From NCBI GenBank assembly GCA_005862285.1, contig SZXW01000014.1:62001-126000 (forward strand): a DNA stretch of 64,000 bases, read 5' to 3'. The position numbers and the translations under genes are program-made. The stretch comes from Chlorobium sp. Its GTDB lineage: Bacteria > Bacteroidota > Chlorobiia > Chlorobiales > Chlorobiaceae. Below the pieces are notes generated by a model that ran no database searches, had not been told where the DNA came from, and was given only the letters and a program-made list of their open reading frames with translations. Shown here piece after piece: positions 35,150 through 62,780 of the stretch. How positions within the stretch are numbered: position 1 is the first letter of the stretch; each line of letters opens with the position of its first letter.

Positions 35150-35977
35150 CTAAAGGCCGACAGCCAGAAGCGGATCAGGATAAAGAAAGCTGTATTCCAG
35201 TGCACTGACAAGCTTTGAACTGTTGACCAGTTTATACGGGGAAGGTACTGATGATGTTGCCGGTGGAGGCAGCGGAATTCCGGTCGCCTCGGCAGCTTTT
35301 GCATAATATTCCTGTTTGAGGGGATGCAGGGGAGCACATGCATTGAACACTTCCCCCCACTGTTCGAGACGTATGATCTCCATGATAATCCTGATGCAGT
35401 CATCTCGGTGAATCAGGTTCATCGGCTGGTCAGGAGCTGTTATTTCCTTCATATGGCCGAGATAACCCGCCGGATTCCGGTCATAACCTATCAATCCTCC
35501 GAAGCGCAGGACTGTTGTCTGAAAACCGCTTTCACTCATAAGCATCTCTTCTGCAAGCAGCAGCGCCTGACCGGACAGAGATTCCGGATCGATGCTGTCA
35601 TCCTCGGTAACTTCCCTGTTGCAGGAAGGATAAACCGATGTCGAACTGACGAAAAGCACCGACCTGACTGTTGACTGACCAAGAGCGTCGATCAGAGAGG
35701 AAAACTGCCCGATATGGTATTCGATGATATCATCCCGACGTTCAGGTGGAATATTGACCACAAGAATATCGCTTTGAAGAAAATCGGTAATATCATCTCC
35801 GCTCACTTCCGGATCGAGATTGATCATGAACGGTTCAATTCCGGAATTACGAAGTGTCTCCAGTTTTTCCTCCCTTGTTGTCGAGCCTTTTACCCTGTAA
35901 CCTGCAGCGGCAAGGGTACTCGCGAGCGGCAGACCCAGCCAGCCGCACCCAAGTATGGATATGGTTTCCTTCTGCAT
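35150..35977 (-). CDS. NAD(P)-dependent epimerase/dehydratase (SDR, YeeZ-like)
   Basis: The 275-residue protein begins with a dinucleotide-binding fold, SILGCGWLGLPLASTLAAAG, and carries VLFVSSTSVYPSCNREVTED with the SDR serine and tyrosine. The best family guess is the atypical SDR group of E. coli YeeZ. Substrate is unknown. It is six bases downstream of a cytochrome c gene and appears to be the last gene of the glpK-led operon. Confidence 0.82.
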   Translation of the reverse strand: MQKETISILGCGWLGLPLASTLAAAGYRVKGSTTREEKLETLRNSGIEPFMINLDPEVSGDDITDFLQSDILVVNIPPERRDDIIEYHIGQFSSLIDALGQSTVRSVLFVSSTSVYPSCNREVTEDDSIDPESLSGQALLLAEEMLMSESGFQTTVLRFGGLIGYDRNPAGYLGHMKEITAPDQPMNLIHRDDCIRIIMEIIRLEQWGEVFNACAPLHPLKQEYYAKAAEATGIPLPPPATSSVPSPYKLVNSSKLVSALEYSFLYPDPLLAVGL

Positions 35978-35983
35978 AATGTG

Positions 35984-36295
35984 TTATTGTTTCAATGACT
36001 GTATATAGAGCAAAATCGACTGCATCTCCATCGAATCTTCGTCGAGGGGTACTCCCCTCAGCGGACCGATAATACAGTTGTTGACCTGTCCGGCAAGGTT
36101 CGGATTTACCCAGGCTAACTGCAGGTCCGCCCCCCCGCGATGACAGCTTGCACAGCTTTTACCTGAAGTCGCGCCGGCAAACAAGGTGGAATTGAAAAGC
36201 TGCTGTCCTCTTTCGATCGAGGGCATTTCATCTGCGAGCGCTCCCTGTGAAATAAAGGAAACACAAATCAGGAACAAAAACGTGATATTTTTCAT
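35984..36295 (-). CDS. Small periplasmic c-type cytochrome
   Basis: From ATG 36295, preceded by GGAG, the product has 103 residues: a signal peptide (about 1-21, ending ALA), then one heme site C48-A-S-C51-H52. A Met in DEDSMEMQSILLYIQSLKQ could be the distal ligand. The heme-site order and size suit a soluble electron carrier. It lies between the CWC zinc protein and the SDR gene on the same strand. The partner enzyme is unknown. Confidence 0.85.
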   Translation of the reverse strand: MKNITFLFLICVSFISQGALADEMPSIERGQQLFNSTLFAGATSGKSCASCHRGGADLQLAWVNPNLAGQVNNCIIGPLRGVPLDEDSMEMQSILLYIQSLKQ

Positions 36296-36315
36296 CTGAA
36301 GCTCCGTTAAGGTTT

Positions 36316-36540
36316 TCAATTCTCCAGGTTCTGCCCGGTACTGCTCTTTCTGATCAGCCTGTCAAGACAGCTGCTGCAGACACAGGTATCATATCGGGAG
36401 GCAAGATGATAGCGTACATCGTCGGGAACGACTTTCCTTGCACACCAGCATGAAGCGTTCAAGGTACATTCAAAGGGGCTTCCACATACAGGGCAAGTCA
36501 CTGTTTTAGCCATACCGGGAACATGTTCGTCAGTGTTCAT
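36316..36540 (-). CDS. Cysteine-rich CWC family protein
   Basis: The 74-residue protein has the CWC pattern: C16PVC19, C25, then C31-W-C33, and later C53-V-C55-SSC58. Eight cysteines suggest two metal sites, probably zinc. The family function is unknown. It sits 42 bases after glpK and 20 bases before the cytochrome gene on the same strand, so co-transcription is likely. Confidence 0.85.
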   Translation of the reverse strand: MNTDEHVPGMAKTVTCPVCGSPFECTLNASCWCARKVVPDDVRYHLASRYDTCVCSSCLDRLIRKSSTGQNLEN

Positions 36541-36581
36541 TTCCAGTTCTGTTTAAGGGTTCTTGATTTTATTTTCTCCAC

Positions 36582-38033
36582 CTATAAGGCAAGCGTCTGC
36601 CTGAGCGCCCGCTGCCAGCCGGAAAGAAGAGTCTCTCTTGATTCCGGATCCATCCCGGGAATATAGGAATGTTCGAAATGCCGCAGTGATTTCAGCTCAT
36701 TGACAGAATTCCAGATACCGCTTTTCAGACCGGCAAGATAGGCAACTCCAAGGGAAGTTGATTCAATATTTTCAGGTTTTACAACTGGAACGCCGAGAAG
36801 ATCGGCCTGAAACTGCATGAGAAAAGAGTTGCCTGCAGCCCCTCCGTCAACCATGAGAGACTCGGGATTTATACCGGTGTCCGCAACCATTGCCTTGAAC
36901 ACATCGTAGGACTGATAGGCGATCGACTCAAGGGCAGCACGTATGATATGGTTGCTGTTTGTTCCGCGTGTCAGTCCCGTAATAGTTCCTCTTGCATCCG
37001 CTCTCCAGTGGGGAGTTCCAAGACCGACAAATGCCGGGACAATATATACCCCTGCATTTCCCGAAACTTTTCGGGCCATAGATTCCGAATCCTCGGCACT
37101 TTGCAGGATCTTCAGTTCATCGCGAAGCCACTGGACAACCGCCCCGCCGATAAAAACAGATCCCTCGAGGGCATAACAGGGTTTACCGGAAGCGTCGACG
37201 GCAAGTGTCGAAAGGAGACCGTTCTGGGAATGCACAAGCTTTTCCCCTGTATTCATAACCATGAAGCAACCGGTCCCATAAGTATTTTTCATGCTGCCCG
37301 GGCTGTAACAGCACTGGCCGAAAAGAGCCGCCTGCTGATCGCCTGCCACCGCATTGATCGGAACTCCCCGAAGTTCAGGAACAGCGGTAACCGTACCGAA
37401 ACCATCCATTGAATTCCTGACTTCCGGCAGCAGCATTTCAGGTACATCGAACAGATCGAGAAGATCTTTGTCCCAACGCTTGTCTACAATATTGAAGAGC
37501 ATCGTCCTCGATGCATTGGTGAAATCGGTTGCATGCACTTTCCCAGCGGTAAGTTTCCATACCAGCCAGGTATCGATGGTTCCGAAAAGAAGGTTTTCGT
37601 AATCAAGCCGGCCGCAATGGCCAAGTATCCACCTGATTTTGGCTGCACTGAAATAGGCATCGAGCGGCAAACCGGTTCTGGACCTGATAAATTCCCTTTC
37701 CGGTTCGTACCGCCTCAAAAATTCACTGGTTCTTCTGCATTGCCAGACTATGGCATTGTAAACCGGTATGCCGGACCTTTTGTCCCAGACAACGGTCGTT
37801 TCCCGCTGATTGGTTATCCCGACCGCCTCAACCTGTCCGGAATATTTCGTTCCGAGTTCCTGTAACCCAAGGACAACGGTCTGCCAGATTTCTTCAGGAT
37901 CATGTTCAACCCAGCCTTCCCTGGGATAGATCTGGGTGAATTCACGATAGGCACTGGCCAAAGCAGCGCCTTTTTCGTCATACAGGATACTGGTTGTACC
38001 TGTCGTCCCCTGATCGATTGCAAGAATCGCCAT
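36582..38033 (-). CDS. glpK: Glycerol kinase
   Basis: GlpK phosphorylates glycerol to glycerol 3-phosphate. The 483-residue FGGY-family protein opens with ILAIDQGTTGTTSILYD, has TNQRETTVVWDKRSG with the glycerol-binding residues, and the C-terminal MVDGGAAGNSFLMQFQADLL. It is the first gene of a four-gene minus-strand run (kinase, CWC protein, cytochrome c, SDR). No glpF or glpD is adjacent, which is odd for glycerol catabolism. Confidence 0.95.
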   Translation of the reverse strand: MAILAIDQGTTGTTSILYDEKGAALASAYREFTQIYPREGWVEHDPEEIWQTVVLGLQELGTKYSGQVEAVGITNQRETTVVWDKRSGIPVYNAIVWQCRRTSEFLRRYEPEREFIRSRTGLPLDAYFSAAKIRWILGHCGRLDYENLLFGTIDTWLVWKLTAGKVHATDFTNASRTMLFNIVDKRWDKDLLDLFDVPEMLLPEVRNSMDGFGTVTAVPELRGVPINAVAGDQQAALFGQCCYSPGSMKNTYGTGCFMVMNTGEKLVHSQNGLLSTLAVDASGKPCYALEGSVFIGGAVVQWLRDELKILQSAEDSESMARKVSGNAGVYIVPAFVGLGTPHWRADARGTITGLTRGTNSNHIIRAALESIAYQSYDVFKAMVADTGINPESLMVDGGAAGNSFLMQFQADLLGVPVVKPENIESTSLGVAYLAGLKSGIWNSVNELKSLRHFEHSYIPGMDPESRETLLSGWQRALRQTLAL

Positions 38034-38294
38034 AGTTCCAGACTATACATCTTCAAAATGATACACCAGCAATTACCTTCAACTTAAAAATACCCAAGGC
38101 TCCCGATATTTCCTTACCAATAATCTCACAAGCAAAACCCATGAGATCAGCCTCGAATATTTCACCGTTTCATTACAATGATATATAATATCCACTTGCC
38201 GGGAAACGCTCATGAATAAAGGTCAGTCCGGTGTATTGAGGGCTCCCGGAAGAACGGATAAGGTGAGATTGACAATATCAGGCAACCTCTGCGA

Positions 38295-38768
38295 TCAAAC
38301 CCTTTTCGCTTCGACCCAGTTGGAATACCCGGTCATCCGCATATCGATTAAACCGCAGTGTTTGCAGACATAGTTCGAACATTGCACTATATAATGCCAT
38401 TCGACATCGTTATGAAACTCTTTCTTCAGGATCTCTTCCGATTCTCCTTTGTATTCCCACTCGTGCATCCTCTCTTCAACCCTGCCATCCCTTGCACATC
38501 TCCGCCTGTAACAATAATCCTGATGTTCGCCCTCCTTTATCCATGCATGCTGTTCCCTTTCTTCCTTTTTCTCGCACTGCTGGCAAGCACGTGTCTGCAT
38601 GCAGGACTGATCGGATACATATTGCCATTCAGTAAACTTGTGGGGAACAGATCTTGTCAGCTTGACACCGCACCTTGCACAGACTCTCATCTGATCGCAG
38701 GAAGTCCCGGGAACAAACTGCCAGTCACTGAATTTGTGACCGAATGTATTACAAAGCAATTGTTTCAT
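38295..38768 (-). CDS. Cys/Trp repeat protein with three to four CxxC units
   Basis: The 157-residue protein is built of units of about 30 residues with the pattern H-x-F-x-x-W-x-x-V ... SC-x-Q-x-R-x-C-x-x-C. Unit 1 has HKFSDWQFVPGTSC and CARCG, unit 2 HKFTEWQYVSDQSC and CQQCE, unit 3 HAWIKEGEHQDYC, and the end has CKHCG. Such CxxC pairs are probably zinc knuckles. There is no signal peptide. I do not recognise a named family with this exact repeat; similar H-W-C-CxxC repeats occur in bacterial surface proteins. Confidence 0.75.
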   Translation of the reverse strand: MKQLLCNTFGHKFSDWQFVPGTSCDQMRVCARCGVKLTRSVPHKFTEWQYVSDQSCMQTRACQQCEKKEEREQHAWIKEGEHQDYCYRRRCARDGRVEERMHEWEYKGESEEILKKEFHNDVEWHYIVQCSNYVCKHCGLIDMRMTGYSNWVEAKRV

Positions 38769-39199
38769 GCTGTTTTATCTTGTAGAGACAGGATCTGAAA
38801 CCAGAAAAAGATTGTTTAGCCGATGTATTAGACATTTGATGACCGTACAGGACCCGGGCTGAGGGAATAAATAGTACTTCATCCATCAGAAGCAGTTATG
38901 CTATATGCAAATATAGGCAAGCTTTCAGACTGCCGGAAAATACTTTTTTTAAAACACGTTCTTTTATCCAGGAAGAATCCCTCAAAACACCCGAATTTCA
39001 ACTTGTTTTTTGCATAACCCAAGAGGCGTAATGCAGTTTTTTTTGATTTTTCTAAAAATCTGCACAAGGATATTCTGTAAACGTCGTCGAAATAGATGAA
39101 AAAGGTTGAAAGTGTGTGTTCGCCTTTGGTGTTGTGTGTGTGTTTGAAAAAGTTTCAACAACTGTCAGTTTTTTTTGACAATCGGTGATGAAGATTCGG

Positions 39200-39290
39200 A
39201 CAGATGAGTACCTCATAATTTGATGTTTACGGGACAGGTTGTTGATTTGAAAAGCGAAGGGGTTTATTCTCCTTCGCTTTTCTTTTTTTT
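39200..39290 (+). ncRNA. Candidate small RNA ending in an orphan terminator
   Basis: A strong terminator ends at 39290, but no coding frame lies upstream on this strand for over 1 kb. A small hairpin ATGAG-TAC-CTCAT (39204-39216) precedes it, and TTGACA stands at 39175-39180. The -10 is not clear, so the 5' end is a guess. This is a prediction from structure only. Confidence 0.4.
39249..39290 (+). terminator. Rho-independent terminator with no upstream gene
   Basis: GAAAAGCGAAGG (39249-39260) pairs perfectly with CCTTCGCTTTTC (39271-39282), followed by eight T. The 38769-39435 gap also holds a weaker hairpin TGCAT/ATGCA near 39010-39035 followed by T8 and a GT-rich stretch at 39110-39145; no gene is seen. 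Confidence 0.88.
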
Positions 39291-39435
39291 AATGAACAAG
39301 CATGCCATCCGTCCACCTTTTATCCATCAGATTACCTGCAAAAGATTTTACCTCGGAAAACGTCAAACATAAGTAGGGTAGCGAGGTTCATGTACACGTG
39401 ATAAATACAAACAAAATTGGTGAAGGAGAGGGGTC

Positions 39436-40011
39436 ATGAGACGATCATCGTGGATTTCACTGATACTCACACTGCTCATGCTGGCAGGGTGTTCGAACAT
39501 CAGCGTCGTAACCGATTACGACAGCAGCGTTCCTTTCGCAAGTTACAAAACATACCGCTGGGCCGACGACATGACAGCAAAAAAAAGCAGCAGTGTTCTT
39601 GCAAACAATCCGCTGATATTGAAACGGATCAAAAATACAATAGACAGAGAGTTCGCGGCAAAAGGTTATGTGATGAACAGTAACGGACCTGTGGACTTCA
39701 CGGTTTCCGTCTCCGCGGGAGTCCGGGACAAAGTTTATTATAACCCTCCACCCATGGGCTTCTATTATTCGCGAGGCTATTACCATGGCAGGTACGGTTT
39801 TTACTATCCTTATTGGTGGGGGCCTTATGCAACAAGGTATGAGGAAGGCACGCTTGTCATCGACGTTATTGACCAGAGAAAAAACGAGTTGGCATGGCGA
39901 GGAATTGCGAGGGGAATCCTGAAAAACTACAGGGATGGCGACGATCTCCAGAAAGATATCGACGAGGCGGTATCGAAAACGCTTGAGGAATTCCCGCCGC
40001 TGAAAAAATAA
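39436..40011 (+). CDS. DUF4136 lipoprotein
   Basis: The 191-residue protein has a lipoprotein signal with lipobox LAGC and acylated C19. The mature part shows the DUF4136 pattern: VVTDYDSSVPFASYKTYRW near the start, and TLVIDVIDQRKNELAWRGIA later, with a Tyr/Gly-rich insertion between. It is probably in the outer membrane; the function is unknown. GGAGAGG stands upstream. It converges with the gene at 40058. Confidence 0.88.
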   Translation: MRRSSWISLILTLLMLAGCSNISVVTDYDSSVPFASYKTYRWADDMTAKKSSSVLANNPLILKRIKNTIDREFAAKGYVMNSNGPVDFTVSVSAGVRDKVYYNPPPMGFYYSRGYYHGRYGFYYPYWWGPYATRYEEGTLVIDVIDQRKNELAWRGIARGILKNYRDGDDLQKDIDEAVSKTLEEFPPLKK

Positions 40012-40057
40012 ATCAGCGGCTGTTCAGCTGGACAAACTGTGCTGTTAATTCGAGGTT

Positions 40058-40780
40058 TCAGATCAGTTTACCTCTTAGCCTGAATCCGTGAATGTCAAGA
40101 TGAATGAGCACAGGTCCTTTCAGGGGCTTTCCCTTCGGCCCTCTCGGAGTCACTCTTCGTTCCGACGGGTAAAGCAGACCTTCTTTATTTCTTGAGTGTT
40201 GCAGGACAACATTTGAAGCTTTGGCGAGCGGGCTGATAATATCTGCCGTATAATCGTGCTGGATCAGTCGCCCGTTGTCGCGGTCAAACCTGAAGCGCTG
40301 CACCTGGCTGTGAGTAGGAATCTCCTGGGGGAAGTGCGCTTCGAGCAGGCCGGGTTCAAGCTCTTTCCAGTCTATATCCTCACGCATCAGCAGAGCGGGC
40401 AGTGTGAAGTAATTCCATGAAGCATAGTTCGCGAAATAGGACATATCGAGATCGTCCCAGATAAACAGACGCCGGCCGATTTTGAAATACTCCCGCGCAT
40501 TCTTCCTTTCGGCTATCACCTTTCCGGTTTTATCCTCGAGGCGAACGTCATGTCCTTCAAGAATGCCTGAAATACCTGGAACCCGCCCGATCGGAGTAAG
40601 CGAGGAAAAGGGACTGTGCACCTTTTCGATAATCTTTACACGCCGGAAAAACGGCCTCCGTTTCAGTGTAAATGCCCACCCGTAGGCATTCACCTCCACT
40701 TCAAGCGTTTCCGCGCTCTGCCAGAGCTCCCTGCCGCCATATGCTGCAATGGCTTTTTCAGCTGTTTTCGAAATAGACAT
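40058..40780 (-). CDS. Conserved hypothetical protein, beta-rich
   Basis: The 240-residue protein has no signal peptide or membrane helix. It is rich in alternating strands (YGWAFTLKRRPFFRRVKIIE; LIQHDYTADIISPL; GPVLIHLDIHGFRLRG), suggesting a beta-barrel or LolA-like fold. Similar proteins appear in soil and phototroph genomes as unnamed families, but I cannot assign one. It stands alone between converging and same-strand neighbours. Confidence 0.7.
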   Translation of the reverse strand: MSISKTAEKAIAAYGGRELWQSAETLEVEVNAYGWAFTLKRRPFFRRVKIIEKVHSPFSSLTPIGRVPGISGILEGHDVRLEDKTGKVIAERKNAREYFKIGRRLFIWDDLDMSYFANYASWNYFTLPALLMREDIDWKELEPGLLEAHFPQEIPTHSQVQRFRFDRDNGRLIQHDYTADIISPLAKASNVVLQHSRNKEGLLYPSERRVTPRGPKGKPLKGPVLIHLDIHGFRLRGKLI

Positions 40781-41005
40781 GCAAGATCACTGGTATGGTT
40801 GTTTTGGTAATCCGGTCCCGGACATGATCACAATATCAAAGAAACGTGATATTTCTCACTTCTATAGTGAATATGAAGAGCCTAAAATTAAACGACAGAT
40901 AAAAAATATCAGTTCCTGCAAGAGGGATAGATTTTCGTCGAGATCATTTCCATCCTTATCTCAGGTTCCGGCAGGAAACAAACACAAATTATCCGTCAAA
41001 GGTTA

Positions 41006-41785
41006 CTATTGCGAAGCGGACGAGTAATAGCTCATGAAGAATTTAGCCTGTTCGATAAAATCATCAGGCCCGACTGAGATCAATCCTTCGAACGGGTGAT
41101 CGAGCGACTTTATCAGAATCATGACCAGAACAATCATCCCGGAAAGTGAAGATACCATCAATATCTGGGCCCAGACATTGCTTGTTCCGAAAAGGAAGCT
41201 GAATGCAATAGTAATGAAACCACCGATAATCAGCACATTCCACATCATTTCGGGAATTCCGTTATTCCTGGAAAACAGTCTTGCATTTCTCGCATCGCTG
41301 AAATTATTCATCCGCGATATGATTTCTTGGTACCAGATCTTTTCGTAATCGTTTCGGGGGGTGATCGATGTCACATCGCTGAAAATCTTTCTCATCCTGA
41401 CACGGGCTGTCGAGCTGATTTCACCTTTTCCCATCAACCGCCATTCTTCATGGATCACGCTATCTGCATAATCCAGAATGTCTTTCCGGATTGTCGAAGT
41501 ATAAGGTTCACCGAAAATCCTCGCATCACGGAAAACATCGGACATGCAGCGGACTTCTTCATGAACCTTCACTTTCGCATCGCGAAAAAGCTCCCATTCT
41601 ACAATAACGACAAAAGCAAGCAGAACGGCATAGACAACGCCGATAACATTGAAGATAAAGCCGGCCACATCATTATGCAGAGCGAGTACCGTATGGCCGA
41701 AAAGCCTTCTCACTACAAGCATGCACAAAGCAGACAGGAACATGACCGATAAGGTGATAAATGTCGCAAACAATAAATTTTCCAT
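41006..41785 (-). CDS. DUF4239 (bestrophin-like) membrane protein
   Basis: The 259-residue protein has two N-terminal membrane helices (about 3-25, 42-62 with FIFNVIGVVYAVLLAFVVIV), a charged central region and two further helices (about 190-230). This layout, with NDVAGFIFNVIGVVYAV, fits DUF4239, a family distantly like bestrophin channels. Function is unproven. It is a single gene. Confidence 0.82.
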   Translation of the reverse strand: MENLLFATFITLSVMFLSALCMLVVRRLFGHTVLALHNDVAGFIFNVIGVVYAVLLAFVVIVEWELFRDAKVKVHEEVRCMSDVFRDARIFGEPYTSTIRKDILDYADSVIHEEWRLMGKGEISSTARVRMRKIFSDVTSITPRNDYEKIWYQEIISRMNNFSDARNARLFSRNNGIPEMMWNVLIIGGFITIAFSFLFGTSNVWAQILMVSSLSGMIVLVMILIKSLDHPFEGLISVGPDDFIEQAKFFMSYYSSASQ

Positions 41786-41927
41786 GATGGCAGGTTTATT
41801 GTAATCCTGAAAAATTTTGACTAACAGTGAATTTCGGCATTTCGAAACCGGATAAACAGCGGTTGATGATATTAATATAGTGTTTACGGCGTAAATAAAT
41901 ATCGTACAAAAAAGGAAATATTCAGGA

Positions 41928-42294
41928 TCAGCAGTTATCTCTTGTCTGCAAGTTTTTCAGCCTCATTCTTTTGACTCCTTCGTTTTTCACCCTTTCCTCA
42001 AGTATACGTTTCAGAAGCTCTGCGGCGGGTTCGTCGTCGGGATCGGCAAGTTCGCCGCTGAAAGCTTTGGCGAAAACAGACTACTCGATCTTATCTACCT
42101 GTTCAAGGGTTTTTCTGAATTGGGCTTCGACGGAATCGGCAGCGTCGTTTACTGTTGTATATTCTTCAACCGCGTGAAAGGTAAGCTTCGAAATCTCAAG
42201 ACCTTCTCTATAGGGAATGATTTCCCATGGAGGATGGAGGATTGAGGGCTTTAAGCTGGGTATCGATCCGGGCTTCCCTTGTCTGCCATTCGGA
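41928..42294 (-). pseudogene. Type I restriction scar: 5' part of hsdR fused to 3' part of hsdS
   Basis: Reading the minus strand, SEWQTREARIDTQLKALNPP and WEIIPYREGLEISKLTFHAV, then VEEYTTVN, match the N-terminus of HsdR. The frame between the two pieces is broken by a 7-bp tandem duplication (ATGGAGG twice, 42227-42240 on the plus strand). The text then passes directly into the HsdS C-terminus, DSVEAQFRKTLEQVDKIE, a TAG stop at 42081-42083 where HsdS proteins have Gln, and SVFAKAFSGELADPDDEPAA. The stop is TGA 41928-41930. A deletion between hsdR and hsdS explains it. Confidence 0.82.
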
Positions 42295-42322
42295 TTAATG
42301 CATGATCGAAGAATATATATCA

Positions 42323-42997
42323 TCAAGGCTTTAGAGTAAATGCTTTCTCTCCTTCAAGCTCAGCCTTTCGTTCTCTGATATATTTTATTACAGCAATAAT
42401 AATCATAAGAAAAAAAACTACAGTGATCGGAACAGTGTAAATCTCAACAAATAATCCGATCTTCTCCCATTTATTGCCAAGATAATAGCCGCCATATATT
42501 AAAAGGGAGTTCCAGGCCGTTGCGCTTAAACCTGCAGCGATAAAGACCATAACGGCATTAAGATTCATAAGACCGATTACCGGAGATATGAGCGAACGGG
42601 ATCCCAAAAGAAACCGGTTGATCAGCACCGCAAAATATCCATACTTTGAAAATCTCATTCTAAGCGCAGTTAACTCATTTTTAGGAAAGCGCTTATAAAT
42701 CCTGTTCAACCATTGATATTCTGATATTCCGTTATCATGCTCAAATATTCTAGTCCCGAACTTTCTGAATAAAATATAAATAGAAATAAAGCCGAGGGTT
42801 GATCCAAAAGATGGCCAAAAAATAGCCATAAAAATATTGAGTTTCGTATAAAAAAGCAGAAATCCTATAAGCGCTATAAATATATCAAGTGGTAAAAAAG
42901 GTATAAAGTTTTTGAAAAATGATATTAGAAACAGAGAGATATAGAGAGAAAAGGGATCTGCCGAAAGCAAAAAAGAAATAATTGTTTCACGCATCAC
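42323..42997 (-). CDS. DedA/VTT-domain membrane protein
   Basis: The 224-residue protein has a VTT-domain layout with about five membrane segments, including KNFIPFLPLDIFIALIGFLL, the loop RFSKYGYFAVLINRFLLGSR with a conserved arginine, and a C-terminal helix. DedA proteins are phospholipid (undecaprenyl-phosphate or PE) flippases or transporters. Many ATA and AAA codons make it more AT-rich than its neighbours, which suggests transfer. It lies next to the restriction scar. A second DedA gene is at 49484-50164. Confidence 0.85.
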   Translation of the reverse strand: MMRETIISFLLSADPFSLYISLFLISFFKNFIPFLPLDIFIALIGFLLFYTKLNIFMAIFWPSFGSTLGFISIYILFRKFGTRIFEHDNGISEYQWLNRIYKRFPKNELTALRMRFSKYGYFAVLINRFLLGSRSLISPVIGLMNLNAVMVFIAAGLSATAWNSLLIYGGYYLGNKWEKIGLFVEIYTVPITVVFFLMIIIAVIKYIRERKAELEGEKAFTLKP

Positions 42998-43137
42998 TAT
43001 AACTTCTAATATTTAAAGAATTCCATTTCTTGAACATGATAAATTTCTAATCAAAGGTAAATTACATCGGGCATCCTTGTTATTTTCATATGTAACTTGC
43101 GTTGCTAACCGCAAGATCTTCCCATGCTGATCTTTCC

Positions 43138-43704
43138 TTACAATCCGAAAAAAGCAAAAATTCCAAACCCGACACCACAACCGGCACAAGCCAAACTTAT
43201 GTTGAGCAGCCATTTCCTGCGGGTTAGCAGTGACATGGCTGCAAGCGAAATGGCGATCTGCAGAGTTGTCGCCCCCGTAGCCCAGAGATGATGCTCATGC
43301 ATAAGCCTTTCTGATCGTTTTTCAGAATTTTCCGACAGTTTTTCTTCTGCTTCAGCTTTCTTCCGGATTTCCTCTTTTTCATTTCCATATCGAGTAGCAT
43401 TATTTTTGCTGATTTCCTGATTTTTACCCGTTGTAAGCATCGTTGCGAGCTCAGCAATATTTTGCCTGTTGTTTTTCGACTGGTAATAATTCCATTGATC
43501 GGCCGCTTCGGTTTTCTTGATCGTTGCATCATTTTTCAAAATGATAGCTTCTCCGAGGGAAGCGCTTGCTTCATAGGAAAGTAACGCACCCAATGTGGCC
43601 ATAATTGACGTGAAAATCGCAATACGGCTGTTAAACGCATTCGATTTTTCTTCTCCTTCGAGAATCTCATCATGAGGTCCTTTAACTTCAAATTCTTCAC
43701 TCAC
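43138..43704 (-). CDS. DUF4337 membrane protein
   Basis: The 188-residue protein has the DUF4337 pattern: a helix IAIFTSIMATLGALLSYEAS, the block AADQWNYYQSKNNRQNIAEL, a charged coiled-coil stretch and two C-terminal helices. Function is unknown. It is in the same minus-strand stretch as DedA, 140 bases upstream of it. Confidence 0.87.
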   Translation of the reverse strand: MSEEFEVKGPHDEILEGEEKSNAFNSRIAIFTSIMATLGALLSYEASASLGEAIILKNDATIKKTEAADQWNYYQSKNNRQNIAELATMLTTGKNQEISKNNATRYGNEKEEIRKKAEAEEKLSENSEKRSERLMHEHHLWATGATTLQIAISLAAMSLLTRRKWLLNISLACAGCGVGFGIFAFFGL

Positions 43705-43877
43705 GGAATCTCCTCCCTAATTTTTCCTTCTTCAGCTTTGCTTGTCGGGCAGAAAAAACTTAATATACAACAAGCGTTTCACCTTCCCTTTTTAGTCATA
43801 TGTAGCCTAACAACCTCGACGATATCGAGGCTGAAGACGGTATAACCTTTTTTAATAAAAACTTACATGAGCAGCTC

Positions 43878-44078
43878 ATGCTGGGACAAATGGATGTCAT
43901 CCTGATCGGTGGTGCGATACTGTTACTTTTCGGACCTAAAAAGTTTCCCGACCTTATGAAAGGGCTCGGACAAGGGATGAAAGAGTTTAAAAAAGCTCAG
44001 ACTGATTTTGAAGAGCAAGTGACAAAATCGGTTACTTCTTATGAAACCACGAATAAACCGGAAGAAAACAAACCTTAA
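43878..44078 (+). CDS. tatA: Sec-independent translocase component TatA/TatE
   Basis: The 66-residue protein has a short N-terminal helix (VILIGGAILLLFGPKKFPDL) with the FGPKKFPDL hinge, then an amphipathic helix and a polar tail, as in TatA/E. It forms the pore part of the twin-arginine pathway for folded proteins. No tatB or tatC is adjacent. Confidence 0.9.
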   Translation: MLGQMDVILIGGAILLLFGPKKFPDLMKGLGQGMKEFKKAQTDFEEQVTKSVTSYETTNKPEENKP

Positions 44079-44595
44079 AATTAATATAAGCGCTAATCCT
44101 CAGGAATCCGTTTCAATATTGTAAATTTTTGACTGCTGCTCGAAACCGATAATCATCCTGTCGATGCTCGTTACTCATTTTAATAAGAATGGAATCTTCA
44201 GATCGAATCCTTGAAAGATACCATCATTGATACAGACAAACCAATTGGCCTTATAGCAGGGAGACCTTGAAAATTTGAATAATAACCGGCATGATTGACA
44301 GGTACACCTCCTAAGGATGGTATCTATAAATCCCCGTTATTCAGATAAATGGCCGTTTTCAGAATGGCACACAAGTTTTGTGAATACAACGTCAGGTACG
44401 TATAAGTATCGGCAAGCATGGAAATAGCGAATGATACTTTCAATCCGGAAGGATTTTTTGTATCAAGACAAGAACACAATCCCCCCGAATTTCCCGTCGC
44501 TGATAACTTCCAGCAATGCCTTTCAGATGTTTTTGCAATCATTATTTCATAAGGAATTATAATGACCATTCAATCAGATAAGGGCACCGCTATTT
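44079..44595. other. Non-coding gap between tatA and the DUF1003 pseudogene
   Basis: No convincing gene is seen. One short plus-strand frame (44418-44552, 44 codons, beginning MEIANDTFNPEGFF) could be a decayed fragment, but it has no ribosome site and no recognisable family. Confidence 0.4.
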
Positions 44596-44703
44596 ATTGT
44601 CGTGAGAAGCACGAGTGCAAGGCGGACGGAGCGGAGAAACCGGAGTGTACATGCAGTACATGAGGATTTCGAGCACCGCCCAACGCAGCAATAGGGCTTC
44701 GGA
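44596..44703. repeat. GC-rich repeat with central GTAC palindrome
   Basis: The segment runs from GTGAGAAGCACGAGTGCAAG through TGTACATGCAGTACA at about 44645-44660 to AACGCAGCAATAGGGCTTC. From memory, similar sequence is dispersed in several bacterial genomes, but I cannot check this. It lies at the 5' end of a decayed DUF1003 gene and may have replaced its original start. Confidence 0.45.
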
Positions 44704-45243
44704 ACAAATAAATAGAGGTGCCCATAATTTTCAGACAAAATCTCCTTCAGACATCCCAGGTAATTATTACCGGTTTCATGATCAACACCGGCACCTCGAA
44801 CCTGTATTCGGAAGTGACTGGTTTGCGTTGAAAGCAGAAGCGTTTGCCCGTTTTTTTGGAACACCTCTTTTTTTGGTTTCTCAGACTGTAATTGTCTTGC
44901 TTTGGATAGGTCTCAATGTGATCGGGTGGGCCAGGTTTGATGTTTATCCATTCATTCTTCTGAATCTGGCGTTTAGTCTGCAGGCAGCGCCGCCCCATTA
45001 ATTCTTCTGGCGCAGACACGTCAGGCCGATAGAGACAAGGCACACGCTGAAGCGGATGCCCAACATCGCGAATCCCTTGCAATGGCAAGCGAACAGAGAG
45101 AATTACTGGCCGCGAAGCAGAATGAGCAACTTTTAAAACTGCTTGAACAGAACACAGAACTTACCGTGCTTGTCAAAGAGTTGACTTCACATATAGAAAC
45201 ACTGACAAATGATGTTCACCAGAAAGTTGTAGCTGAAAAATAA
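44615..45243 (+). pseudogene. Frameshifted DUF1003 membrane protein
   Basis: The first part encodes a DUF1003 core: FGSDWFALKAEAFARFFGTP, then two membrane helices ending AFSLQAA, after which the frame stops at a TAA (about 44998). In the next frame the family sequence resumes at once, PLILLAQTRQADRDKAHAEA, and runs to TAA 45241-45243 with a coiled-coil tail. The family normally has AAYAAPLILLAQ, so about four bases appear lost near 44988. The N-terminal region is inside a repeat and looks unoriginal. Confidence 0.8.
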
Positions 45244-45294
45244 AGAAAAACACGTGCAGCTTGATGGCATCCTGAATGAATCCTGCACAAGAGT

Positions 45295-46035
45295 TTACTG
45301 TTCCCCCTGTTTCTCGGTCAGATATTTCCAGTATTTCATGGGCATGTTGGATTTCTGCAACCGGGGATTCCTGCGTTCGGATATGGCGATGGTGCCGAAG
45401 AAGGTTTTCCAGAGCGCCTGCACCGCTTTCTCCTCCTCTGACAGGGCTGGCGCGGTGAACTGTTCGATAGCACCGAGCATGAGGGTTCCCCTGTTCCAGC
45501 GGGCGGCTGTTCGGCGCCGGACGTCGTAGATAAACCAGTTCTCGGCCCTGAGCCGCTTGCTGAAATGCAGGGCGAGGGGATGGATGATGTTGTTGTCCGG
45601 CTCCATTTTCGCCAGGTATGCGCCGTCCTGCAGCTTTTCGAAACGCAGAAGCCCTTTCATACGGTGCAGTTCCCGGCCGGCTTTCCTTGCAACCGTGACG
45701 ATCTCCTTCACTGCCGGATGGGTGAGGTAGCCGTTCACCTTGCTGCCATGCCGCATGGCAAGTGAGAGATAGCGCAACATACTTGTTTCCAACCCTTCCC
45801 TCTCTGCCATCGTGAAATAGTAAAAGGTATAGGCCGCTTCGGAAGCCTGCTTCTGCAGGCGGCTGAAAAATTCCTCGGCCGCGGCAGTATCGGTTGAAAT
45901 GTAGCAGCCTTCCTCGAAAAGCGTGTTTTCCCGCTCGGCAAGGGTGACACGTTCAACATCATCTTCTTCCGAAATAATATGCGCTACCGCACTCAGCAGG
46001 CCTTCGGAGGTACCATCGTAGAGGTAGCGGTTCAT
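45295..46035 (-). CDS. TIGR03915-family (DUF4130-type) SAM-partner protein
   Basis: From ATG 46035 the product has 246 residues and starts NRYLYDGTSEGLLSAVAHII, the form typical of the family. Later blocks are HPLALHFSKRLRAENWFIYD and PMKYWKYLTEKQ. Family members sit beside the TIGR03916 radical-SAM gene and are thought to act with it in DNA metabolism. Here the two genes are four bases apart on the same strand. An upstream frame extension to 46194 overlaps the neighbour and is less likely. Confidence 0.87.
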   Translation of the reverse strand: MNRYLYDGTSEGLLSAVAHIISEEDDVERVTLAERENTLFEEGCYISTDTAAAEEFFSRLQKQASEAAYTFYYFTMAEREGLETSMLRYLSLAMRHGSKVNGYLTHPAVKEIVTVARKAGRELHRMKGLLRFEKLQDGAYLAKMEPDNNIIHPLALHFSKRLRAENWFIYDVRRRTAARWNRGTLMLGAIEQFTAPALSEEEKAVQALWKTFFGTIAISERRNPRLQKSNMPMKYWKYLTEKQGEQ

Positions 46036-46039
46036 TGCA

Positions 46040-47302
46040 TCAGGCGAAGAGTCCCGGAAGGACAAGTTGTTTCGGCGGTTCGACAACCATAATGTCGCTG
46101 CCGCTCCCGAGCAGCAGGCGGTTGCGAAGCTGGGGCACGGAGCCTGCCGGTTTTTCAAAAGGCCTGCCCGAACAGGTGATGAAATATCTGGCACGCTTCA
46201 TGACCACTCCGATTTTCTTCAGACCTTCGGGAGTGATGACGGAAAAACGCCGGGCGGTGATGATCCTGCGGGCCGATGTCACGCCGATGCCGGGAACACG
46301 CAGCAGAGTAGCATAGTCAGCACGGTTGATCTCGACGGGATAGAACTCGGGATGCCTCAGAGCCCACGCGGTCTTGGGATCGAACGATTCGTCAAGGTTC
46401 GGCATATCGTCCGACAGGATCTCTTCAGCCGAGAAACCGTAAAAGCGCAGCAGCCAGTCCGCCTGGTAAAGACGGTGCTCCCGGAGGAGAGGAGGTGCCG
46501 CAAGGACAGGTAGCCGGTTGTCTTCGTTGACCGGTACGAATGCCGAATAGTAGACACGCTTCAGGTTCATTTTCCGGTAGAGCCCCTGCGAAAGCTTGAG
46601 TATCTGGAAATCGCTTTCCGGGCTGGCGCCGACGATCATCTGGGTGCTCTGGCCAGCCGGGGCGAACTTAGGGGCTTTCCGGCTCGTACGGCGCTCGAGG
46701 AGGTTCTGGCCTATCTCCCTGCCGATAAGCGACATCGGTTCGAGAATGGAGAATTTTTCTTTCTGCGGTGCAAGGCGTTTCAGCGATTCATGCGACGGCA
46801 GTTCGATATTGACGCTGATGCGGTCGGCATAAAGGCCCGCGCGTCTGACCAGTTCCGGACTGCTGCCGGGAATGATCTTCAGATGGATATAGCCTCGGAA
46901 CCGCTCTTCGTTGCGCAGGATTTCAACCACGCTGATCATGCATTCCATAGTCTGGTCCGGGCTTTTCATGACCGCCGAACTGAGGAAAAGCCCTTCGATG
47001 TAATTACGCCGGTAGAAATCCATGGTGAGATCGGCCACTTCGCGTGCTTCGAAGGATGCTCTTTCGACCGGATTGGAAGAGCGGTTCACACAATAGGCAC
47101 AATCGTAAATACAATCGTTGGAAAGCAGGATTTTCAGAAGCGAAATGCAGCGGCCGTCGTCGGACCACGAGTGGCAGATACCGCTCTGAGACGTGTTCCC
47201 GGTGCTGAAAGGATTGCCTTCCCTGCTGCACCCGCTCGAAGCGCACGATGCGTCGTATCGCGCCGCTCCGGAAAGGATCTGAAGTTTCGCAAGCGTTTCC
47301 AT
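46040..47302 (-). CDS. Putative DNA modification/repair radical SAM protein (TIGR03916)
   Basis: The 420-residue protein has the radical-SAM triad C64, C68 and C71 in SNDCIYDCAYCVNRSS. Four more N-terminal cysteines (C20, C25, C43, C52) could hold a second cluster or zinc. Near the C-terminus is a helix-hairpin-helix, LLRVPGIGVTSARRIITARR, which suggests DNA contact. The family role in DNA repair or modification is predicted rather than shown. It is translationally close to the TIGR03915 gene. Confidence 0.9.
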   Translation of the reverse strand: METLAKLQILSGAARYDASCASSGCSREGNPFSTGNTSQSGICHSWSDDGRCISLLKILLSNDCIYDCAYCVNRSSNPVERASFEAREVADLTMDFYRRNYIEGLFLSSAVMKSPDQTMECMISVVEILRNEERFRGYIHLKIIPGSSPELVRRAGLYADRISVNIELPSHESLKRLAPQKEKFSILEPMSLIGREIGQNLLERRTSRKAPKFAPAGQSTQMIVGASPESDFQILKLSQGLYRKMNLKRVYYSAFVPVNEDNRLPVLAAPPLLREHRLYQADWLLRFYGFSAEEILSDDMPNLDESFDPKTAWALRHPEFYPVEINRADYATLLRVPGIGVTSARRIITARRFSVITPEGLKKIGVVMKRARYFITCSGRPFEKPAGSVPQLRNRLLLGSGSDIMVVEPPKQLVLPGLFA

Positions 47303-47354
47303 GAAGGCAATATAGTCAAGAAAGCGTTAAGAGTGCAGGACGGAACAGCACCAT

Positions 47355-48833
47355 TCAGACAATGCCTCTCGGGGCCTGCTGCAGGAGCAGTTCCACCGTC
47401 CGGCGCGCCCCTGTCACTACTCCAGGCAAAGATTGGCCCGGAAAAATGGAATCACCGACCAGATAAAGGTTCGCGTAGCGTGTTGCTGGGCCGCGTACCC
47501 TGAAAAGCGATGTCTGTGGATAACCTCCCACGCAGCCGTTCTGCCGTCCGGTATAGCGTTCCCAGGTAACCGGTGTTCCTGCGCTGATGCTCCTCACGGC
47601 ATCACGTGCGCCGGGAAATTGCTCCGAAAGCACATCGAACAGCTTTTGCGTGTACATATCCTTCAACTCCCTGTAGGCGGACTGACCCTTATTGAGGGCT
47701 TCGAACCAGGGTTTCGACTCTGCATGCGTCGAGATGGTCACCGCGCGCAATCCTTCAGGCGCTCTGCCGGGTTCATCGTCAGGGGAAATGGAAGCGAATA
47801 TCGAATCGCCTTCCGTGAGTTTTCCGTTTCTGCTGACAATTTGAACATGCCTGGCCGGAAGGTTCCTGAAAAGCTCAGGCTCCATTCCGAGATAGAGGGT
47901 AAATGCGCTCCAGAGGTGCAGCCCTTCCTTTTCAGGCTCAAGTGCGGTTTCCGATCCCTCGATCCCGGCAAGGGATGCAGGGGTCATATTCGCTAAAACA
48001 AAATCGGTGGCAAAAGCGCCTCCGTCCGATGTTTCCAGACCGATAACCTGCCTTCGCACGGAATCGATGCGAATGACTTTCTGCCGGTAAAGCACCACGC
48101 CATCGTATTTTTCGATAGCCCCTGCAAGCCGTGAAGCCACCGCGCCCATGCCGCCTTCGACACGAAAGGTGCCCGAAGCGGGAAGATCGAGCGCTATTGC
48201 CGCATTGACGGCGTTGGCAAACTGCGATGTGGTTTGCACGGAAACAAGCAGCTGCGCATCGATAAACCGTACAAATTCCGGATCATGGTGCAGGTCATGC
48301 GAAGCGAGCCATTCATATGCGCTTTTCGATGCGAATTTCAGCAGGATCGCGGAAGCCGGCAGTCCGGCAAATCCTTTACGGATAAGATTACCGAGATCGC
48401 GAGGACCTTTCACGGGCCAGGACAGACCACCTTTTGCAAGTTTCCAGAGCAGTCTGGCAAGAGCGGATTGTTCCTCCCAGAAAGCCTTTGTTTTCGGGAA
48501 GCGCTGCAGTATTTCAACCCTGCCGGCGGACAGGTCGAGACAGATATCGCCATCACGGTATTCCCATGCAACAGGTTCAGGTTTGACCGGCCAGGCAATA
48601 TCCAGCTCCTTTCCAAGTTCATCCATCGGGCCCCCCGGATGGAAACCGCAACCGATCGTCGCACCGGTATCGAATCGGAACCCCTCCCTTGAAAAGGTTG
48701 CAGCACACCCTCCCGGATAGTCCTGCGCCTCGAGCACTGTCACCATCGCGCCACGCTTTGCAAGCATGGCTCCGGCAGCAAGCCCGCCGATACCGGCGCC
48801 GATAATCATGACATGCATATCTTGAACATCCAT
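47355..48833 (-). CDS. FAD-dependent carotenoid desaturase/isomerase-type oxidoreductase
   Basis: The 492-residue protein (from ATG 48833) has an N-terminal dinucleotide fold, VMIIGAGIGGLAAGAMLAKR, followed by VLEAQDYPGGCAATF, and the C-terminal LYLVGDSIFPGQSLPGVVTG. This is the CrtI/CrtH (phytoene desaturase / carotenoid isomerase) superfamily. In green sulfur bacteria the candidates are CrtH-like isomerases or CrtD-like desaturases, but no crt neighbour helps to choose. ATG 48818 is an equally possible start. Confidence 0.82.
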   Translation of the reverse strand: MDVQDMHVMIIGAGIGGLAAGAMLAKRGAMVTVLEAQDYPGGCAATFSREGFRFDTGATIGCGFHPGGPMDELGKELDIAWPVKPEPVAWEYRDGDICLDLSAGRVEILQRFPKTKAFWEEQSALARLLWKLAKGGLSWPVKGPRDLGNLIRKGFAGLPASAILLKFASKSAYEWLASHDLHHDPEFVRFIDAQLLVSVQTTSQFANAVNAAIALDLPASGTFRVEGGMGAVASRLAGAIEKYDGVVLYRQKVIRIDSVRRQVIGLETSDGGAFATDFVLANMTPASLAGIEGSETALEPEKEGLHLWSAFTLYLGMEPELFRNLPARHVQIVSRNGKLTEGDSIFASISPDDEPGRAPEGLRAVTISTHAESKPWFEALNKGQSAYRELKDMYTQKLFDVLSEQFPGARDAVRSISAGTPVTWERYTGRQNGCVGGYPQTSLFRVRGPATRYANLYLVGDSIFPGQSLPGVVTGARRTVELLLQQAPRGIV

Positions 48834-49093
48834 GGCCTGTAGAACTATATTTTCTGTATCAATAAGCAATGCCAGCCATACGGATGGAAGAAACGTTCCC
48901 CATGGTGACAAGATTGCGATAATTGAATCGATGAAAATATAACCCCGGTAAAGATCAGGAAGTTCTCACCGCAAAAACCATAGTATACGTATCGAAGCAA
49001 TACCACCAGAGCTTTTGGCCCGGAAAGGGATGGATGAGTCTTTTCGGAAGGATAAAAAAGTGAGGGATCCCGAAGAGGTAACTGAAAAAAGTG

Positions 49094-49167
49094 TCGGCGT
49101 AGCGGGATTCGAACCCACGACCCCTTCCACCCCAAGGAAGTGCGCTACCAGGCTGCGCTATACGCCG
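49094..49167 (-). tRNA. tRNA-Pro (anticodon GGG)
   Basis: On the minus strand the acceptor arms CGGCGTA and TACGCCG pair exactly. The anticodon arm is CTTCC-TTGGGGT-GGAAG, giving GGG. The T arm includes GGGTTCGAATCCC. The 3' CCA is not encoded (ACA follows). Confidence 0.97.
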
Positions 49168-49294
49168 AAATCATCGAAAAGGGTACTGATTATAATAAAA
49201 TTCAGGGATTAAAATAACATTTTTTACAGGGTTTCAGCTCGTTTCGGCTTGCATAGTCCCGTCAGAAGCTCCCATTCTATTGAGATATAAAAAC

Positions 49295-49479
49295 TTATCA
49301 ACAATACCCATATAACACATCAAACTTTTTAACATCGAGACAGGTAATAGTGAAAATAACGGCAAAAATCATTTATATTATTATATAAAAATAACTTAAT
49401 CTGTATTTCAATATCTTGCGGACCATCCGGAAACATCTGAAAACGTAAAAAACGACAGGTATTCAACAAGTTATCCACA
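49295..49479. other. AT-rich gap with two DnaA-box-like sites
   Basis: TTATCAACA at 49295-49303 is one base off the DnaA box and TTATCCACA at 49471-49479 is a perfect box. Between them is an AT-rich tract at about 49360-49400. No gene is seen between the tRNA and the DedA gene (49168-49483). This could be a DnaA-binding or replication-linked site; a chance match is not excluded. Confidence 0.4.
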
Positions 49480-49483
49480 TTTC

Positions 49484-50164
49484 TCAAACATTTGCACCGG
49501 CATCATGCCTGCCGAAACGGTATTTCAGGTAACCGATGACCGGCGGCACAAGGGAAACGGCAATAATGGCAAGGAATATCAGTTTCCGGTTCTGCTGCAC
49601 TACGGGAAACTGCCCGAAAAAATAGCCGCTGTAACAGAAAAGGCATACCCAGAACAGTGCGCCACCGATGCTGAAGAGAATGAAACGGCCGTATGACATC
49701 GAACCGATACCGGCAACAAACGGGGAAAACGTTCTGATAATGGGAATGAAACGCGCTATGATCACCGTCTTGCCTCCATGTTTTTCATAAAAGGCATGAG
49801 TTTGTGCAAGATGGTCCGGATTGAAAAATTTTGATTTCCTGAAACCGAATACCTTAGGGCCGATCCGGCGTCCAATGAAATAATTGAGGTTATCACCGAT
49901 GAATGCGGCGGAAAAAAAGATAAGGACAAGAATGTGGGGATCAAGAGATGAACCTTTCAGGGAGGCAAGTGTTCCTGCTGCAAAAAGCAGAGAATCACCG
50001 GGAAGAAAAGGTGTCACAACCAGACCTGTTTCACAGAAAACGATAAGGAACAATATACCGTATATCCATATTCCATATTGAGTTACAAGAAACAGCAAAT
50101 GGGTATCGATATGCATGATAAAATCAATTACAAAAGATACCAGTCCGTTCAGTGAATAGTCCAT
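49484..50164 (-). CDS. DedA family membrane protein
   Basis: The 226-residue protein is a classical DedA/VTT transporter, with FCETGLVVTPFLPGDSLLFA, then FIGDNLNYFIGRRIGPKVF, the loop HAFYEKHGGKTVIIARFIPI with the conserved arginine, and FSPFVAGIGSMSYGRF. DedA proteins move undecaprenyl phosphate or phospholipids across the inner membrane. It is monocistronic. Confidence 0.93.
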   Translation of the reverse strand: MDYSLNGLVSFVIDFIMHIDTHLLFLVTQYGIWIYGILFLIVFCETGLVVTPFLPGDSLLFAAGTLASLKGSSLDPHILVLIFFSAAFIGDNLNYFIGRRIGPKVFGFRKSKFFNPDHLAQTHAFYEKHGGKTVIIARFIPIIRTFSPFVAGIGSMSYGRFILFSIGGALFWVCLFCYSGYFFGQFPVVQQNRKLIFLAIIAVSLVPPVIGYLKYRFGRHDAGANV

Positions 50165-50306
50165 TGTCTGTCGATAAAGAATGAAAAACCAGGGATAACC
50201 GGTTAAGCTGCATTCCTGGGTTCACCTTCGAGAGTGAAGGCTGAAAAGTTATTATTGTTGTATATATTAGTTTTTTTTGCTCGAGAGAAAAAATCAGGGA
50301 TCGATA

Positions 50307-51194
50307 ATGAGTTATCTTGACACAGACCGCTGCAGACTTTACTATGAAGACAGTGCCGAACATGATCCATCCGGTTTCCACAAACCGGCCGTGCTGTTTG
50401 TAAACGGCTGGGCAATTTCATGCAGGTACTGGAGACCGCTGATCGAGAAACTGTCTCAGAAATACCGCTGCATCGTCTACGACCAGAGCGGTACCGGCAG
50501 AACCGTGATCAGGGGGTACAAGCCTGCGTTCACTATTGAAGGATTCGCCAGCGAGGCTGGCAGGCTCATCGAGTACCTCGGGCTCGATAAAACAAGGAAC
50601 CTGCATATTGTCGGGCACTCGATGGGAGGAATGGTTGCAACGGAACTCTGCCTCCGGTACCGCGATGCCCTGCTTTCGGCATCCATCGTTGCATGCGGTA
50701 TTTTCGAAGAAACCGCCTTTACCTCGCTCGGGCTCTTTTTTCTCGGGGGGCTTATCGATGTTTCCATGAATTTCCGCAACGTCTTTCTGGTCGAACCGCT
50801 CAGAAGCATGTTCATCAAACGGGCGGCGACAAAAGAGATAAGCAGGGATTACCACGATATCATCATCGAGGATTTCACCCAGTCCGACAAGGAGGCAACC
50901 AACGCTGTCGGAAAGTTTTCCATCGATCCGGAAGCTCTCAGGGCATATACCCGTCATGTCATCCAAATCCCTTCTCCTGTTCTCTGCTGTGTAGGTATGG
51001 CTGACCATACCATTCCTCCTGAAGGGACCATAACCCTTTACGAAAGACGGCTGGCGGAAACCGCAACGCCGACAAAACTGGCAAAATTCATGGACCTCGG
51101 ACACCTGCCCATGCTTGAAGACACTGCAAGGTTTGCCGGTGCCCTTGAAAAACATTTTGAATTTGCCGAACAATTTTATAAAAAGACACCCTGA
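50307..51194 (+). CDS. Alpha/beta hydrolase
   Basis: From ATG 50307, preceded by AGGGA, the product has 295 residues. The oxyanion-strand VLFVNGWAISCRYWRPLIEK, the nucleophile elbow GHSMGGMVATEL, and the late catalytic histidine in FMDLGHLPMLEDTARF mark the fold. The substrate is unknown; the family includes esterases, haloperoxidase-like enzymes and BchO-like proteins. It is on the same strand as the PBP gene 82 bases later. Confidence 0.85.
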   Translation: MSYLDTDRCRLYYEDSAEHDPSGFHKPAVLFVNGWAISCRYWRPLIEKLSQKYRCIVYDQSGTGRTVIRGYKPAFTIEGFASEAGRLIEYLGLDKTRNLHIVGHSMGGMVATELCLRYRDALLSASIVACGIFEETAFTSLGLFFLGGLIDVSMNFRNVFLVEPLRSMFIKRAATKEISRDYHDIIIEDFTQSDKEATNAVGKFSIDPEALRAYTRHVIQIPSPVLCCVGMADHTIPPEGTITLYERRLAETATPTKLAKFMDLGHLPMLEDTARFAGALEKHFEFAEQFYKKTP

Positions 51195-51276
51195 GAAACC
51201 TGATCCGGTTGACAGGTCTGCAATCGATGAGCATGCGTCTGCCTTGAAATATGAATACTATGCGTAAAACATCAAG

Positions 51277-62468: not shown

Positions 62469-62525
62469 TTGTCATTCACTTATTACTCCGACGATGAAAG
62501 GTATTGATCCGGTTTTGCGCAAAAA

Positions 62526-62623
62526 GTCATTCTGAGGCCGATGCAGTCGGGCGAAGAATCCATAACCCTTTTCTGAAATTGAAGATAGATCCTTCACTAC
62601 GCCATGCTTCGTTCAGGATGACA
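62526..62623. repeat. GTCATTCTGA-type inverted repeat, second copy
   Basis: It opens GTCATTCTGAGGCCGATG, contains GAAGAATCC and on the other arm GATCCTTC, and ends CAGGATGACA. The ends and the GAATCC core are those of the 2274-2363 element, so they are the same family. It lies before serB. Confidence 0.7.
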
Positions 62624-62780
62624 GGATCAATATCATACCCATCTTCGATCTTTCGTTGCTGTAGTAATAATGCTTGTTACTGCTCGTCAGTTGTCTAGGC
62701 CCCCCCCGTTTTTGAAGGTTCCCGAAACAACATTATCTTGACTGACAACTTTACAGGGTAATAACCGATATCTCCAGCAC

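Follow-up and report, generated by a model that had tools for sequence, protein, structure and literature searches.

On the minus strand of a 64,000-nucleotide stretch of Chlorobium sp. DNA (hereafter the window), a short sequence appears to run from the beginning of one type I restriction gene, hsdR, directly into the end of another, hsdS. This raises the question of which system once stood here, how its two ends came to be joined, and whether anything functional is left. We conclude that the locus is almost certainly the decayed scar of an hsdR-hsdM-hsdS type I operon, collapsed by a net deletion and now a non-functional fusion (Table 1).

Restriction systems are often gained and lost. Since this turnover is well known, the case illustrates rather than changes the existing picture; its value is as a base-resolved example of restriction operon decay, with intact and part-decayed relatives available for comparison. 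The finding is ordinary pseudogene history, unusually legible, and we found no report of this case in the literature.

Table 1. Features of the hsd remnant, its surroundings and the second type I system (window coordinates unless stated)
Feature	Position	Strand	Description and basis
hsdR'-'hsdS fusion remnant	42303-41928	minus	0.37 kb; base-by-base check and translation
hsdR 5' remnant	42135..42303	-	start codon to ...NDAAD codons, ~66 codons; tblastn and DNA alignment
hsdS 3' remnant	41928..42141	-	last ~55 codons of homology; tblastn and tail alignment
Deletion junction hsdR/hsdS	42134..42142	-	CTGCYGAYT shared; comparison with four sequences each of hsdR and hsdS
Nonsense change, hsdR codon 3	42295..42297	-	GAA in four relatives, TAA here; alignment of hsdR starts
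7-bp tandem duplication	42227..42240	-	ATGGAGG twice on the + strand; frameshift; 7-column gap in 4/4 relatives
Nonsense change in hsdS part	42081..42083	-	TAG here; CAG or CAA in aligned hsdS tails
Accessory segment carrying the remnant	41934..45293		3.36 kb; 175 bp instead in syntenic G008; blastn
Accessory segment contents			hsd scar, VTT-domain gene (42323-42997), DUF4337 gene, tatA-like gene, short inverted-repeat element, DUF1003 fragment; Pfam
Second type I system	L055 7861-15557 (G000:C10)		every frame open; hsdR, then two or three other ORFs, then hsdS and hsdM

The remnant joins the two ends of a type I operon

The original prediction had read an HsdR N-terminus passing straight into an HsdS C-terminus, and had proposed tblastn and comparison with relatives as checks. 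Searching the window with the intact proteins of G012, a genome of the same genus, bears this reading out. HsdR residues 5-33 match 42324-42238 and residues 31-65 match 42239-42135 (E 3e-14), while HsdS residues 415-467 match 42140-41988 with 68% identity (E 3e-15). These matches are contiguous and follow the order of the operon, and tblastn with the G012 operon proteins found nothing else in the window. The remnant therefore consists of the hsdR start with its first ~66 codons, joined to the last ~55 codons of hsdS.

The hsdR-like stretch begins ATG CAT TAA TCC GAA TGG and stays in one frame to ...LKALNPPS. Beyond the frameshift caused by the ATGGAGG duplication, the reading is WEIIPYREGLEISKLTFHAVEEYTTVNDAAD straight into SVEAQFRKTLEQVDKIE-TAG-SVFAKAFSGELADPDDEPAAELLKRILEERVKNEG...; homology to hsdS ends at about 41950-41988, and the frame is open onward to a TGA at 41928-41930. 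Pfam returned no domain match on the raw fusion fragments, as is expected of pieces that fall outside the domain models, and the intact proteins of relatives were therefore needed for the identification.

In G012, the operon is intact (hsdR 906 aa, hsdM 468 aa and hsdS 483 aa as stop-to-stop frames) and is ordered hsdR-hsdM-hsdS, all on one strand. Its HsdR carries the Pfam domains HSDR_N, ResIII and EcoEI_R_C, and its HsdS carries Methylase_S. A second copy in G028, intact or nearly so, is split over two contigs: a short one that carries hsdR, hsdM and some of hsdS, and another that has an hsdS tail. The lost operon is thus of the type I restriction-modification, EcoEI-like (type IB-like) family. 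With the hsdRMS operons of G012:C43 and G028:C51, which encode an EcoEI-like HsdR (PF08463), the window shares both operon ends, codon for codon and with order and strand unchanged, but it lacks everything from hsdR codon ~66 to hsdS codon ~415, including hsdM, and carries three disabling lesions.

What is missing comprises the nuclease and DEAD-box motor domains of HsdR, of which residues ~1-66 remain with no Pfam domain, and the target-recognition domains of HsdS (two in a functional system), of which residues ~415-467 remain. The deletion originally proposed between the two genes did account for the loss of the hsdR motor and the hsdS recognition domains; hsdM, which lies between them in relatives, went unmentioned and is gone as well. 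In fact, tblastn found no hsdM at the locus and none of the G012 type anywhere in the window's own genome, where the best match (47%) lies on contig C10. Of the parts that make up a functional type I system (the HsdR domains, HsdM and a two-domain HsdS), the locus has none.

A join within short hsdR/hsdS similarity

The junction reads AACGACGCTGCCGATTCCGTCGAA in the window, CCTGCTGATTATG in an example hsdR relative and CTTGCCGACTCCCTCGAA in hsdS relatives. The join falls within 7-9 bases of similarity between hsdR and hsdS, CTGCYGAYT, and the frame is kept. Because the R-M-S order on one strand in relatives allows a net in-frame loss of the ~5.15 kb that separates the joined points in G012 (L046, 3969 to 9118), the fusion can be explained as follows. 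A net deletion between similar short sequences, at hsdR codon ~66 and hsdS codon ~415, would have taken the hsdR nuclease and motor, the whole of hsdM and the two recognition domains of hsdS, leaving an in-frame hsdR'-'hsdS fusion. The position of the join suggests illegitimate recombination at microhomology, in one or possibly several steps; this microhomology is short and is read from the sequences of relatives, among which no intact operon was found at the window locus.

The collapse may have been stepwise, through several smaller internal deletions, for example within hsdR first and across hsdM-hsdS next. Such a course is a variant of the net deletion and not an exclusive alternative to it, and we rate its chances as appreciable if somewhat below even: a decayed copy in G020 shows two internal deletions, whereas in the window hsdR and hsdS meet at one join, no operon fragment lying in between.

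Disabling lesions and probable relaxed constraint

Within the remaining sequence, the hsdR start, ATG CAT at 42303-42298, is followed directly by TAA. The two copies of ATGGAGG at 42227-42233 and 42234-42240 correspond to a single unit in the four hsdR N-termini aligned as DNA with the remnant (G012, G028, G020 and G002). The original prediction, which regarded the damage as readable base by base, had correctly called this duplication and the conversion of a Gln codon to TAG in the hsdS part, but had missed the TAA at codon 3. Judged by its sequence, which matches the two ends of the operon in their normal order and carries a codon-3 stop, a frameshifting duplication and a later stop that intact relatives lack, the fusion is a dead pseudogene. 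We infer, from one genome, that the point lesions came after the deletion. For the annotation of this genome, no hsdR or hsdS gene should be called at 42303-41928.

The window copy is the most diverged member at the amino-acid level, with raised first- and second-position changes. It differs from relatives at 16-18 residues in a 48-codon hsdR block (1-10 among other members) and at 11-13 residues in a 30-codon hsdS block (2-6 among other members). This excess of amino-acid change fits what relaxed constraint would predict, the samples being small.

An in-frame join near the native hsdR start might also suggest that the fusion was once expressed as a small protein with a role, such as a regulator or decoy, that was lost later. 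We consider this very unlikely, however, given that chance alone yields an in-frame join one time in three, that neither half holds a domain for catalysis or recognition (none was matched by Pfam), and that the fusion is now dead. Moreover, no intact protein family of this exact fused form, which the original prediction had named as evidence against its reading, was found among the 65 genomes surveyed, and the exact fusion is absent from the other genomes of the genus.

Decay of the operon across the genus

The decayed scar in the window is not the only one of its family. Among the 65 congeneric genomes that we surveyed, with membership of the HsdR family set at over 70% identity, a complete HsdR of this EcoEI-like family was found only in G012 and G028, as was its HsdM (87% or more; others 49% or less). 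HsdR remnants are present in G002 (residues 1-145, frameshifted), G020 and the window, and a 55-residue piece in G085, with a stop nearby, is possibly a remnant of the same family. Only the HsdS tail is left in G007, G010, G081 and, at a second place, G020; G013 has an HsdS tail alone at a contig edge, where incompleteness is possible. Since the remnants differ among several congeners, decay of the EcoEI-like hsd operon is recurrent across the genus.

The decayed copy on G020:C142 (L047 5900-7100, minus) is of the same family and, like the window, retains the hsdR start and the hsdS end after internal deletions. Unlike the window, it lies at another locus, keeps an hsdR C-terminal piece (802-859) and hsdS from 304 on, which includes some of the second recognition region, and has an open hsdR start; it is an independent partial collapse. 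The hsdS tails on G007:C36, G010:C122, G081:C43 and G020:C259 and the hsdR head on G002:C9 also belong to the family and have no hsdM, but differ from the window in preserving one end only and in lying at other loci. Because their neighbourhood is shared, the G010 and G020:C142 remnants are probably at one locus; those of G002 and G020:C259, both adjoining a TPR-like gene, may mark another.

A cell that gave up only the methylase and kept the nuclease would be harmed. Losses in the genus may take the middle of the operon and keep one or both ends, and one could imagine a tolerated exit in which nuclease motor, hsdM and recognition domains are lost together. We offer this as an idea only and think it improbable; the ends may only seem to be retained because of the way in which deletions happen and searches are run.

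A second type I system in the same genome

On contig C10 of the window's own genome, the frames of HsdR (954 aa), HsdS (487 aa) and HsdM (501 aa) are all open. This system is of a different type I subfamily, with about 35% (HsdR) and 47% (HsdM) identity to G012. Because C10 carries another open type I system, the scar records the loss of one system and not of type I restriction altogether, and the bacterium is not restriction-free. The claim that the locus records loss of a restriction system consequently stands for the collapsed hsdRMS operon, with the qualifications that several steps are possible, as in G020, and that the C10 system is still open.

Genomic setting of the scar

The hsd remnant sits at the edge of an accessory segment. 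On either side, G008 is collinear with the window at 35566-41933 (91%) and 45294-52756 (89%; blastn, window against L056). In G071, G084 and G034, the gene at 40058-40780 almost directly adjoins 45295, with no hsd traces, and the Bestrophin-like gene (41006-41785) is also absent. As none of these four genomes has the segment at this site, the site is a variable one, with the extra genes gained (or kept) in the window lineage. The VTT gene of the segment looks accessory, because C14 carries another copy, which is genus-wide.

That the scar is an assembly or sequencing artefact is scarcely credible: the sequence does rest on one assembly, but the contig is collinear with G008 over 6.4 and 7.5 kb on the two flanks of the segment, the remnant is single-copy in its near-complete 2.61-Mb genome of 15 contigs, and independent remnants of this family are seen in other assemblies.

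Insertion of the segment with target duplication was considered and rejected, there being no long repeats at the ends of the 3.36 kb, against 175 bp in G008, that would mark a transposon. The 175-bp filler in G008 (G008:C84, L056 7466-7640) has no match among the other sequences compared. Near the locus, Rfam identified only a tRNA. Within the segment, a ~148-bp element at 44579-44726 resembles a miniature inverted-repeat element. Its 20-bp ends form an imperfect inverted repeat (90%); about 14 near-full copies (73-100%) occur in the window genome and one, at 86%, in G084. A frame at 44615-45001 begins inside this element and holds a DUF1003 domain cut to its first ~47/103 positions, probably another gene fragment of this segment. 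We note finally that short dispersed repeats at 2270-2368 and 62472-62676 have several matches in G071, G084 and G034 at 74-84%.
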